A DNA stretch of 64,000 nt, taken from contig JAPZUF010000010.1 in NCBI GenBank assembly GCA_027533395.1, positions 186,001 to 250,000 on the forward strand, read 5' to 3'. Source of the stretch: Cyclobacteriaceae bacterium. Its GTDB lineage: Bacteria; Bacteroidota; Bacteroidia; Cytophagales; Cyclobacteriaceae. A model generated the notes under the pieces. The model was not told the origin of the DNA. It did not search any database and was given only the letters and a program-made list of their open reading frames with translations. Within the stretch, counting starts at the first letter, position 1, and every line of letters begins with the position of its first letter. This document shows positions 27,812 to 31,321 of the stretch, in pieces. The position numbers and the translations under genes were made by a program.

Positions 27812-29107
27812 ATGGTTATTACATCTTCAATCATTGCGTTTACCGTAGTAATTCTGTTGCTGGTGGCGCTTTTAATTTTTGCGCAGGCTAAGCTGGTGCA
27901 ATCCGGACCGGTTAAAGTGGTGATCAATGGCGAAAAAACAATTACCGTTTCTGCCGGCAGTTCACTTTTAACAACGCTTGCCAATGAGAAAATATTTTTG
28001 CCTTCAGCCTGTGGTGGTGGCGGAACTTGCGCTATGTGCAAGTGCGTGGTAGAATCTGGCGGTGGCGATGTATTGCCAACAGAAGTCGGTCACTTAAATC
28101 GCGCAGAAAAATTAAGCAATGTTCGCTTAGGTTGTCAGGTAAAAGTAAAACAAGACATGAACATCCGCATTCCGGATGAAATATTTGGTATTAAGAAGTG
28201 GGAATGTGAAGTAGTATCTAACTACAACGTGTCAACCTTTATTAAGGAATTTGTGGTGAAACTTCCTCCGGGTGAAACCTTAAACTTTGAAGCCGGTGGA
28301 TACATTCAAATAGATGTGCCTGCTTTGCAAACTAATTTTAAGGATATGGATATTACTCCACATCCGGAATTAGGCCACGCTAGCAAAGACGTATTTAAGC
28401 CAGACTGGGATAAGTTTAAGTTATGGGATTTGAAGATGAAGAATGATGAGCCCATCTTTCGTGCTTACTCCATGGCTAACCACCCTGCAGAAGGAAACAT
28501 CATCATGTTGAATATTCGAATTGCAACACCACCTTGGGACAAAGCGAACAACAAATGGATGGATGTAAATCCTGGTATTTGTTCTTCTTATGTATTCTCC
28601 AGAAAGCCTGGCGATAAAGTAACCATCTCGGGACCTTACGGTGAGTTCCACATTAACAAAACACAACGCGAGATGATTTACATCGGTGGTGGTGCAGGTA
28701 TGGCTCCGTTGCGTGCGCAGATTTTCCACTTATTCCATACAGAGAAAACAAAGCGTAAAGTTTCATATTGGTATGGCGGACGTTCAAAGAAAGAGTTATT
28801 CTATGTGGATCACTTCAGAAAAATTGAACAAGAGTTTCCGAACTTCCAATTCAACATTGGTTTGAGTGAGCCATTACCAGAAGACAACTGGAAAGTAAAG
28901 AAAAGCTTAGATGATAAAGAAGCCGATGGCTATGTTGGTTTCATACACAAATGTTTGTACGACAATTACCTAAGCAAACACGAATCGCCAGAAGATGTAG
29001 AATTCTATTTGTGCGGCCCTCCATTGATGAACGCTGCTGTATTGAAGATGTTAGATGATATGGGTATTCCGAAAGAAAACATTCGCTTTGACGATTTCGG
29101 AGGCTAA
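27812..29107 (+). CDS. nqrF: Na+-translocating NADH:quinone reductase subunit F
   Basis: NqrF takes electrons from NADH and passes them through FAD and a [2Fe-2S] cluster into the Na+-pumping Nqr complex of the inner membrane. The 431-residue protein has an N-terminal membrane helix (residues 5-24), a ferredoxin domain with C67, C73, C76 and C108, an FAD domain with the RAYSMANHP motif near residue 220, and an NAD domain with [15 protein letters not shown] near residue 290 and the C-terminal FLCGPP-type [13 protein letters not shown]. It is complete. The other five nqr genes are not next to it: upstream is hom, downstream the DUF559 element. Confidence 0.95.
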
Positions 29108-29130
29108 GACTTTTAATTTGAAAAAAAGAA

Positions 29131-29159
29131 AAGACCACGCGAAAGTGTGGTCTTTTTTT
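29131..29159 (+). terminator. Intrinsic terminator after nqrF
   Basis: AAGACCACGC (29131-29140) pairs with GTGTGGTCTT (29145-29154) around the GAAA tetraloop, with one G-U pair, and a seven-T tract follows. This is a strong terminator directly after nqrF. Confidence 0.92.
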
Positions 29160-29211: not shown

Positions 29212-29263
29212 CTTCCCCTCCTTTGGAGGGGTGTCCGAAGGACGGGGTGGTAGTAATTGACAA
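29212..29263 (+). repeat. Hairpin repeat unit A (left, direct orientation)
   Basis: CCCCTCC-TTT-GGAGGGG (29215-29231) is followed at once by GTCC-GAA-GGAC (29233-29243), then GGGGTGG and a tail TAATTGACAA. The same order appears, inverted, in the unit at 29855-29899. Confidence 0.85.
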
Positions 29264-29330
29264 GTAAAAAATTAGTAACATCCAAAGCCGAAAGCGATTA
29301 CCCAAAAATATAAATTCACTTTCATGTGAA

Positions 29331-29368
29331 GGAGGAGTGTCCGAAGGACGGGTTGGTAAAATTGACAA
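29331..29368 (+). repeat. Hairpin repeat unit B (left, direct orientation, partly decayed)
   Basis: GGAGGAGTGTCCGAAGGACG and the tail AATTGACAA match unit A with a few substitutions. The second hairpin GTCC-GAA-GGAC (29339-29349) is intact, the first has lost its left arm and is preceded by a different small stem TTCAC/GTGAA at 29315-29330. Confidence 0.75.
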
Positions 29369-29428
29369 ACAATAGTTACTTAAACAACATAAAAAGTATA
29401 GTTGAGCGTGATAAATGATTAATTGTTA

Positions 29429-29899
29429 ATGGAAGACAGTGACTTGAATTTTTCATCAAACGAAAAGATACCTGAAAAGCGGGTTAGCAGAAACACAAAG
29501 AATTATATGAGCCTTCCCTTTAACCCAAATCTAAAAGATCGAGCAAAAGCATTGCGAAAAGCTGGCAATTTAGCTGAAGTACTATTTTGGAAAAAAGTAA
29601 AAAACAAACAGTTTAAAGGTTACGATTTTGATAGGCAAAAAATTGTAGGTAATTACATTGTCGATTTTTATAGCAGTAATTGTCAGGTAGTAATTGAAAT
29701 TGATGGAAGCAGCCACATTGATAAAGAGGAGTATGATGCTGAACGTGATGCTTATTTAAAGGTCTTAGGGTTAACGGTTATTCACATTCAGGCGGAAGAT
29801 GTGTTGGGTAATGTAGATAGTGTGATTGAGGTGTTGCATGGTCATGTAGCGTTTGGACCACCCCGCCCTTCGGGCACCTCTCCAATGGAGGGGAATTAA
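29429..29899 (+). CDS. DUF559 domain protein (Vsr/PD-(D/E)xK endonuclease-like)
   Basis: A 156-residue cytosolic protein with the DUF559 core: RAKALRKAGNLAEVLFWKKVKNKQFKGYDFDRQKIVGNYIVDFY and VVIEIDGSSH, where VDF(Y)…EIDG is the D…E-x-D/K metal site of the very-short-patch-repair-type nuclease fold. The C terminus is odd: the last 14 codons, GPPRPSGTSPMEGN, are simply a translation of repeat unit C, so the stop codon lies inside the repeat. The ATG at 29429 was preferred to a TTG 6 nt upstream. DUF559 proteins are common in Bacteroidota and have no settled function; a role in the movement or processing of the flanking repeats is my hypothesis. Confidence 0.82.
   Translation: MEDSDLNFSSNEKIPEKRVSRNTKNYMSLPFNPNLKDRAKALRKAGNLAEVLFWKKVKNKQFKGYDFDRQKIVGNYIVDFYSSNCQVVIEIDGSSHIDKEEYDAERDAYLKVLGLTVIHIQAEDVLGNVDSVIEVLHGHVAFGPPRPSGTSPMEGN
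29855..29899 (-). repeat. Hairpin repeat unit C (right, inverted), overlapping the DUF559 stop codon
   Basis: Read on the minus strand it matches unit A: stem CCTCTCC-AAT-GGAGGGG (29877-29893) and stem GCCC-TTC-GGGC (29865-29875). Relative to unit A, one base pair of the second hairpin has changed from T-A to C-G on both arms, and one pair of the first from C-G to a T-G wobble, so pairing is kept. Confidence 0.85.
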
Positions 29900-29904
29900 T
29901 TGGT

Positions 29905-30020
29905 GCATCTTCGGGCACGTCTTCAAAGAAGGGAGATTAATAAGAATAATTTCTAATACTTGTCTAAAGGAGGGGAATTAATCAATACACATTCGAGCAC
30001 TTCTCCAACGGTGGGATATA
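29905..30020 (-). repeat. Three decayed copies of the inverted repeat unit (D, E, F)
   Basis: GCATCTTCGGGCACGTCTTC…GGGAGATTAAT (29905-29940), TCTAAAGGAGGGGAATTAAT (about 29963-29982) and ATTCGAGCACTTCTCC…GGTGGGATA (29991-30020) are recognisable fragments of unit C in the same orientation. From 30021 to 30235 I see no gene, repeat or regulatory site that I can support. Confidence 0.6.
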
Positions 30021-30235
30021 TATAAACTTAACTTTACTCGCCTATACAAAGAAGGATAAGTAAACAACTTTTAGTTAACTATTCATGTGCGCAGGAGAAA
30101 GACAAAGGAATTTTAGCAATAATCTAATAGAATAAGACTTAAGCAAATTATATCCATAACTTATTATTGGTTTAAGCTATAAAAAATTCTTTTATCAGAT
30201 TTATAGCTAAGCTGCGAATTCCTTTAATGGAAGGA

Positions 30236-31321
30236 TTAATCTTTTTTTAATTCACCCATTGCAGGCAATGCCTGATTTTGAAAATTGAAAAGTGCTTGGT
30301 TTTCCCAAGGTGATGCATTGTTGGCTTGGTTTCCTTTCCAAGCAATTAATTCTGCTCCCCAATAGCACAAACCTTTTCCGTTCGGGATTTCTTCCATCAT
30401 ATTGCGTAAGGATTGTATAAAGGCACGTTGTCCCTCTGTGCTCGCAGGGAATCCAGGTAAGATAAGTTGTTCTTCTTCGCCTACTATGTTGTTGGTCCAG
30501 TCGTTCCATTCTAAGGTAAATGGATATGCTGTTTCTGCTATTACAATTTCTTTGTTATGTGTTAAGGCAAGAGTGGTTAATTCATTTTTTAAATTATTCA
30601 ATGATTTACCATGCCAGATGGGATAATAAGAAATGCCAATCATATCATAGTCCAACAGTGCAACTTGATTAAAAAACCATGCTGCACCTTCTATACCCGC
30701 ATAGTGAATAATAATTTTAGCCTTGGGCGTTTCTTTTCTTACTACATTAATAGCTGAAGTCATTAAAGCAATAAAGTTGGAGTATTGTTCGACAATATTA
30801 CCCTGAGGATGTAAAAAGCCAGGATTGATTTCATTGCCTATTTGAATGTAATCCGGTTTTATTTCTGTAACAATGCGTAACGTGTATTCCGATACTTCTT
30901 TTTGTAAAGATTGAAAATCCAAATTTTTCCAAGCAAGCGGTGTTATTTGATGAGCGGGGTCGGCCCAAGTATCGGAATAATGTACTGTGAGCCATATTTT
31001 AAAACCCATACTCCGTAATTTTGTACTAAATTCTTTTACTTCGTTAAAGCCTGAATGCTGGCTTGTTGGATTAACCCAAATTCTTAAGCGGACTGTATTA
31101 ACCCCACTCGACTTTATGATATCTAGAAAATCTTTTTGATTTCCATTGATATCTAAAAAAACCGCATTGGTTTCATCTATTTCCGGAAAATTTGAAATAT
31201 CTACCGCTGAAACAAAATCAAGATTTCCATTAGGAAAATCATCTACTTGCTCTTGTCGACAAGCAGTTAGGCATATCCATGTGAATATAAAAATAGCTAT
31301 GCTTCTGAATTGCTTTATCAT
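30236..31321 (-). CDS. Lipoprotein arabinogalactan endo-beta-1,4-galactanase (GH53)
   Basis: A 361-residue surface or periplasmic lipoprotein (signal IAIFIFTWICLTAC, lipobox cysteine near residue 21) with a GH53 TIM-barrel. Family segments are all present: GVNTVRLRIWVNP, WLTVHYSDTWADPAHQ, the acid/base glutamate in YIQIGNEINPGFLHP and the nucleophile glutamate in VIAETAYPF. It would cut beta-1,4-galactan of pectin side chains or type I arabinogalactan. There is no SusC/SusD pair or other glycosidase around it, so it is not in a canonical polysaccharide utilisation locus. The gene is monocistronic. Confidence 0.88.
   Translation of the reverse strand: MIKQFRSIAIFIFTWICLTACRQEQVDDFPNGNLDFVSAVDISNFPEIDETNAVFLDINGNQKDFLDIIKSSGVNTVRLRIWVNPTSQHSGFNEVKEFSTKLRSMGFKIWLTVHYSDTWADPAHQITPLAWKNLDFQSLQKEVSEYTLRIVTEIKPDYIQIGNEINPGFLHPQGNIVEQYSNFIALMTSAINVVRKETPKAKIIIHYAGIEGAAWFFNQVALLDYDMIGISYYPIWHGKSLNNLKNELTTLALTHNKEIVIAETAYPFTLEWNDWTNNIVGEEEQLILPGFPASTEGQRAFIQSLRNMMEEIPNGKGLCYWGAELIAWKGNQANNASPWENQALFNFQNQALPAMGELKKD

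Follow-up and report, generated by a model that had tools for sequence, protein, structure and literature searches.

A DUF559 nuclease gene between inverted hairpin ends in a Cyclobacteriaceae genome: a probable mobile element of REPIN/RAYT-like plan

Why does a gene for a DUF559 nuclease lie between inverted hairpin repeats in the genome of a Cyclobacteriaceae bacterium? The locus belongs to a 64,000-nucleotide stretch of contig JAPZUF010000010.1 (positions 186,001 to 250,000; the whole stretch is hereafter the window). Its layout recalls that of REPINs, inverted pairs of repetitive extragenic palindromic (REP) sequences which are duplicated by REP-associated tyrosine transposases (RAYTs), as reported in PMC8049555. 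We conclude that the feature is probably a small mobile element in the form of an ageing, free-standing copy, made up of the DUF559 gene and of inverted ends that combine hairpins with a G-rich foot. Judged from sequence comparisons, such elements are best read as REPIN/RAYT-like and compatible with coding, and would probably be moved by the Vsr-like nuclease that they encode. Full gene-bearing elements and short gene-less copies share one plan of ends, as RAYTs and REPINs do, and many gene-bearing copies in relatives are translated in frame inside host genes.

Anatomy of the window locus

The copy in the window is intergenic, between open reading frames at 27812-29107 (+) and 30236-31321 (-), and has the following parts.

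29213..29251, + strand: left arm, a complete twin-hairpin unit, 90% complementary over 39 nt to its inverted partner at 29857-29895
29331..29358, + strand: second left unit, degenerate, 93% over 28 nt to 29225-29252
29429..29899, + strand: DUF559 (Vsr-like, PD-(D/E)XK type) nuclease gene, Pfam PF04480, E=1.1e-29
29531..29836, + strand: DUF559 domain, with candidate active-site residues E50, Q70, D79, E90, D92, H96 and D103
29857..29895, - strand: right arm, an inverted twin-hairpin unit with the second stem GCCC/GGGC
29898..30034, - strand: decayed further units right of the gene, repeat family D1 (29876-30034), 61-70% identity

The left arm carries a CCCCTCC/GGAGGGG stem on its outer side, a second stem GTCC/GGAC, and a foot, GGGGTGGT, that faces the gene. 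The second left unit has lost the first stem, retains GTCC-GAA-GGAC intact and has the foot GGGTTGGT. In the right arm the second hairpin is GCCC-GAA-GGGC where the left arm has GTCC-GAA-GGAC, which is a compensatory change, and the first stem contains one mismatch. The preliminary description of the locus had recognized repeats on both sides of the gene, and its outline stands (inverted arms, a second left copy, decayed right units) with details corrected. Its statement that every copy has both hairpins, CCCCTCC/GGAGGGG and GTCC-GAA-GGAC, is inexact, since the second left copy has no first stem and the second stem of the good right copy is GCCC/GGGC. A reading of the units as terminators was ruled out because inverted pairs with a conserved foot flank the gene on both sides.

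The gene encodes 156 amino acids from the ATG at 29429, where residue numbering starts; an alternative TTG start at 29423 gives 158, and an inner ATG lies at 29507. At its 3′ end the open frame is translated through the right arm (ending ..GPPRPSGTSPMEGN before the stop codon). The protein belongs to family PF04480 in Pfam and shows no match to the Y1 transposase family, and the DUF559 profile matches the solved structure 3hrl (E=6.6e-29). Family match and conserved acidic residues place DUF559 with the PD-(D/E)XK, Vsr-like nucleases; the listed residues, the putative active site, are retained in 89 of 89 in-frame copies. Of 21 pairs inside MetH, 15 are unsaturated, and their ratio of nonsynonymous to synonymous substitution rates (dN/dS) is 0.11-0.35. 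The subfamily of the window protein, 60-76% identical, spans phyla. Plasmids and phages were rejected as the main route of spread because matches among them are few and distant: 35 among 72,556 plasmid records and 2 among 50,697 phage records, none reaching 60% identity.

Association of DUF559 with inverted hairpin ends

We surveyed 395 genomes of the phylum, 222 of which have a DUF559 match. From the best-scoring matches among those listed we took 74 solo loci (75 including the window) and 50 long-frame loci, in open frames of 297-1484 amino acids. A window-family set of 75 relatives of the window protein was drawn from named genomes. The arm score of a locus was the best inverted pairing between its 300-nt flanks, and the cut-off was the 99th percentile of offset controls from the same loci (349 for the solo, 297 for the long-frame and 366 for the window-family set). 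Ten loci with flanks that were too short (2 solo, 1 long-frame, 7 window-family) were left out of this test. Arm pairing exceeded the cut-off at 48/73 solo, 28/49 in-frame and 48/68 window-family loci. Thus, DUF559 genes are flanked by inverted units far more often than the same-locus offset placements, a question that the preliminary description had raised, and a gene between inverted hairpin units, the REPIN/RAYT arrangement, is found at the window and as a general DUF559 pattern. The window itself scores 58 with 600-nt flanks (control 99th percentile 38.8, control maximum 68, 229 offset placements) and 32 against a 99th percentile of 26.5 with 300-nt flanks, where its left arm is cut. The parallel had been proposed for Bacteroidota. 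This restriction has to be dropped, since 28 of the 42 tested window-family loci from other or unplaced phyla also pass, including those from a spirochaete-like chromosome (L146, Candidatus Haliotispira), Pelotomaculum (L156) and a cyanobacterium (L170); many of these come from metagenome bins, in which misbinning is possible. Perfect hairpins on both sides, a stricter test that is less sensitive than the arm score, were present at 17/73 solo, 5/49 in-frame and 32/68 window-family loci, compared with 3/349, 0/297 and 2/366 controls. The window does not pass, since the 300-nt flank truncates its left arm.

The ends themselves covary in two ways. Among 36 distinct 39-nt units (35 from relatives and that of the window), neither the first hairpin nor the GGGGTGGT foot varies (36/36), largely because the search pattern, which required GGGG(T/C)GG(T/A), demanded them. 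The second hairpin varies with compensation, in that 97% of its pairs are Watson-Crick versus 67% when partners are shuffled (highest value in 500 shuffles, 79%). The similarity of the arms tracks that of the DUF559 proteins, with a Spearman coefficient of 0.45 over 126 loci and a permuted maximum of 0.08, kinship being ignored. We then counted hairpins per genome, taking DUF559 as strong where the best E was below 1e-10 (163 genomes), so that 59 weak-match genomes are among the 232 without. At least 3 CCCCTCC/GGAGGGG hairpins occur in 73/163 genomes with strong DUF559 and in 18/232 without (Fisher p=6e-18), and at least 10 in 34/163 versus 1/232, again with kinship ignored. Direct rather than inverted repeats were seen by eye in Neisseria gonorrhoeae (L281), where two similar CTCTCCC-hairpin stretches flank DUF559 (2501-2818).

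Gene-less pairs, in-frame copies and empty sites

Gene-less copies, which the preliminary description had proposed to look for, were found in a single-contig genome of the same order (G387). This genome contains 53 CCCCTCC/GGAGGGG-type hairpins and one DUF559 match. The 50 hairpins listed form 18 close pairs and 14 singles, and we inspected 16 of the pairs. One pair, spanning 500 bp, contains the DUF559 gene. No gene lies in the remaining 15, whose feet face inward; 13 of them span 112-130 bp and two span 212 and 304 bp. Of the 30 ends of the gene-less pairs, 12 agree with those of the DUF559 element in at least 40 of 44 positions, and four pairs do so on both sides. This is how REPINs and the RAYT that accompanies them are laid out. 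Around the position of the G387 DUF559 element, a hairpin was present in none of 29 other loci from the genus (600 nt each; 59 genomes of the genus matched), and the spacer is unalignable, with intergenic flanks too diverged for a target duplication to be read. DUF559 flags raised by a loose regular expression in 5 of these 29 loci proved on inspection to be chance RRQR words. Some of the relatives have other paired palindromes at this position (L326, L328, L330, L335, L336, L348-L350), which could belong to REP types already published, CGTC for example.

The second form is in-frame insertion. In the long-frame matches, the element is translated inside host genes with its ends included, and most of these are not ordinary fusions. 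We could name the host by motif at 37 of the 50 long-frame loci, with 13 classed as other: LeuRS at two sites (4+3), MetH (8), RecG (4), HsdR (5), HemF (4, with DUF559 at the N-terminal side), methylases (3+2), IcmF (2) and type ISP enzymes (2). The 75 relatives of the window protein divide into 35 in-frame copies, 22 of which lie in HsdR, 36 solo copies and 4 that were left unassigned. Pfam and NCBIfam profiles run on representatives support LeuRS, MetH, RecG, IcmF, N6_Mtase, HsdR, HsdS, UvrD-type and AddA-type hosts; an HsdS reading of one locus (L249) was unconfirmed by the Pfam scan. No splicing (Hint) domain was matched by Pfam in 20 host proteins scanned, trimmed around the insert. LeuRS is essential, and in 7/7 genomes tested the sole LeuRS above the family cut-off is the DUF559-interrupted gene, in one open frame. 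The insert must therefore be compatible with function, whether it is kept or removed. In-frame insertion in protein genes, as in Rickettsia palindromic elements, is thus found in relatives of an element whose window copy is intergenic, and the copies inside essential and restriction genes are not visible from the window alone. DUF559 was also seen joined in frame upstream of coproporphyrinogen oxidase, a HisF/HisA-type histidine biosynthesis protein and RNase H (L220, L215 and L230, by Pfam), and similar joins were recognized by motif in L224, L227 and L232.

Empty sites in relatives, also proposed in the preliminary description, were found in MetH. Matches were obtained in 57 of 61 genomes of one genus (a few of them repeat-only), and 30 loci were inspected, of which 29 had readable junctions. 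All 29 concern one variable linker, which is occupied in 5 (one being the query genome) and empty in 24. Occupied loci are spread over the MetH tree (5 changes versus a shuffled mean of 4.8), and the linker is variable in length, which affects any reading of target duplication. A second MetH loop has DUF559 in L260 and hairpin ends alone in L268, likely by internal deletion of the element. The MetH loop NDDDIEV..FLTLRQQ (L250-L260) is a hotspot for in-frame insertions, and unrelated CGACAAC-type repeats are read in frame there in some species.

These fixed sites bear on the strongest rival explanation, a homing-like nuclease. Here DUF559 would cut the uninterrupted allele of the host site, homologous recombination would copy the element in, the hairpin ends would act both as linkers and as arms for recombination, and the scattered short copies would arise as a by-product. 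On a tree of 199 DUF559 domains, 181 rows were labelled by host site and 18 'other' rows omitted; the labels need 19 changes versus 68.4 when shuffled, and the 71 in-frame rows alone need 11 versus 41.3, on a short alignment in which many forks are unresolved and near-copies add to clustering. Six of the ten host sites (MetH, RecG, LeuRS site 1, HemF, HsdM and IcmF) correspond to one change each. Clades tied to one host site suggest long residence or homing-like re-entry. The Type_ISP_C domain of type ISP hosts is interrupted by the insert at profile position 180-182 in 5/5 scanned proteins, and patchy MetH occupancy within one genus also agrees with homing, as do within-genus mismatches of distance such as that of L250 and L254 (90% identity in MetH versus 62% in DUF559). 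Against this, HsdR, type ISP, PglX-like and LeuRS site 2 need 4, 5, 2 and 2 changes, many copies are intergenic at unrelated places, and the gene-less G387 pairs lie at scattered sites. MetH and DUF559 distances moreover correlate across all 12 occupied MetH genes (Spearman 0.62), so that long vertical residence explains much; the pattern of distances fits long residence with some exchange. We consider homing-like spread unlikely as the sole account, and it may be part of the same behavior as the mobile element that we favor. Four of the five nearest rows to the window copy on the DUF559 tree are HsdR-inserted.

Proposed mechanism, remaining rivals and known systems

A less probable alternative is that the hairpins are REP-type repeats moved by a RAYT or another transposase. 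In this view the DUF559 gene would be a passenger, inserting into these repeats or close to them. REPs are reported as targets of insertion sequences (PMC1525189), and Y1 transposase (PF01797) matches are present in 18 of the 20 genomes searched, so that a RAYT is excluded only where such a match is missing. It is missing, by profile search, from G387 with its 53 hairpins and from G304 with 4, and the passenger account also leaves aside that the DUF559 element shares its end plan with the short copies, near-identically for 12/30 ends, and that end sequence tracks the DUF559 protein. Least probable of all is a repair or defense domain (very-short-patch-like) spread by recombination between GC-rich repeats, its in-frame joins being ordinary domain gain useful in restriction enzymes: many hosts are indeed restriction-modification genes and the Caulobacter DUF559 protein VsrA is reported as a putative Vsr-like mismatch-repair endonuclease that causes an SOS response in a methylase mutant (PMC12907096), but it is not obvious what MetH, LeuRS, IcmF and RecG would gain from a nuclease domain, and an element accounts better for the matched inverted ends, for the gene-less copies on the same plan and for the empty sites.

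Several observations weigh against a DUF559-driven mobile element. The loci sampled were the strongest-scoring ones among the matches listed. The arm threshold is missed by 25/73 solo, 21/49 in-frame and 20/68 window-family loci, as well as by the DUF559 loci inspected in E. coli and N. gonorrhoeae (scores 18 and 20). Kinship was ignored in the correlation of arms with proteins and in the counts of genomes with 10 or more hairpins, and the DUF559 tree has the limits of its alignment. Eleven genomes without strong DUF559 (G162, G006, G058 and eight others) hold 5-19 hairpins, so the ends can exist without the gene, possibly as a remnant after loss of the full element. Of the gene-less G387 ends, 18/30 match the DUF559 element at fewer than 40 of 44 positions, down to 23, and the widespread Y1 matches leave room for a RAYT in most genomes searched. 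Dispersed copies of the unit were not found in the genome that contains the window (35 contigs, 3.6 Mb), where it is present three times (3 or fewer mismatches), always at the single DUF559 match, the window gene. The units do recur at DUF559 loci of relatives. The likeness to RAYTs proposed in the preliminary description holds as a pattern (inverted flanks, gene-less copies, empty sites) and lacks dispersed copies in this genome. Finally, transposition, cleavage and target-site duplication were not seen in the sequence comparisons, and PD-(D/E)XK nucleases acting by themselves are not ordinarily known to rejoin DNA.

A mechanism can be proposed. The DUF559 protein would recognize its own hairpin-and-foot ends, or a matching empty site, and would nick or cut the DNA there; host repair or recombination would copy the element into the break. 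Because the hairpin ends translate as Pro/Gly/Ser-rich linkers, often stop-free, an element landing in frame in a loop or linker could spare the function of the host protein, and the element would then persist together with the gene that it occupies. Among 99 distinct units, 61 are stop-free in all six frames versus 24% of shuffles, a weak indication since the units are related.

The likeness to the REPIN/RAYT system (REPtron) lies in units of hairpin and foot that flank the gene in inverted orientation, in dispersed gene-less inverted pairs of about 100 bp (here in G387, not in the window's own genome), and in a repeat type that follows the protein. The systems differ in the enzyme, a DUF559 PD-(D/E)XK-type nuclease rather than a Y1 HUH transposase, in the foot, GGGGTGGT-like rather than GTAG, in a protein subfamily that crosses phyla, and in the many gene-bearing copies in frame inside genes. 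GTAG REPs are reported to accompany RAYTs and CGTC REPs to have no transposase link, with REPs also occurring inside genes (PMC3733652). Rickettsia palindromic elements, whose in-frame insertion is reviewed in PMC10969869, and CGTC-tagged REPs resemble the present elements as palindromes in frame in protein genes; here the in-frame element contains a nuclease gene and the repeat sequence differs. Inteins and homing endonucleases also place a nuclease domain in frame at fixed sites of conserved genes with patchy occupancy, whereas the DUF559 hosts show no Hint domain among the Pfam matches of the 20 proteins scanned, and the elements have hairpin ends and free-standing and gene-less forms. Membership of DUF559 (PF04480) is shared with VsrA and NCBIfam NF007294 (PRK09767), and a related fold with the Vsr nucleases of very-short-patch repair. 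We take the last to be E. coli YcjD; the E. coli DUF559 locus that falls below the arm threshold is L280. A fold related to Vsr is reported for VsrA, and the text available on that protein mentions neither hairpin ends nor insertion behavior (PMC12907096). In the literature passages available to us we found no link of DUF559 to hairpin ends or in-frame insertion.

The occurrence of the element in many bacteria, often in frame inside important genes, suggests an unrecognized kind of mobile DNA. More tentatively, DUF559 nucleases may be the engines of a further widespread REP-like class that is compatible with coding and resembles inteins without splicing. Its elements, with the nuclease gene, would enter essential genes in frame, have their hairpin ends translated as linkers and persist as parts of housekeeping proteins. 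If this is true, DUF559, a Pfam family of 'unknown function', gains a role, and REP-like repeats gain an engine that is not an HUH enzyme. Essential genes would then also harbor a self-contained element that survives there with no need of splicing. The origin of in-frame palindromic insertions, as reported in Rickettsia (PMC10969869, PMC3733652), would then become testable.

Congeners of the window genome were compared at the same locus. The hairpin was not found in G453-G455, in about 900 nt inspected. In G452 (L283), in which the upstream gene is 93% identical, the left hairpin lies at the same position after that gene and is broken off after TTCCCCTCCTTTGGAG by other DNA, perhaps the end of an insertion sequence; its contig stops 236 bases downstream of the gene. 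A candidate RAYT in the window's own genome, a single weak PF01797 match on the same contig, lies about 149 kb from the DUF559 gene and was set aside. The other hairpin of this genome (L104) is followed by a T run, which identifies an ordinary terminator-like site, and a short inverted repeat with a T run at 29126-29159 of the window, just after the upstream gene, is a site of the same ordinary kind.
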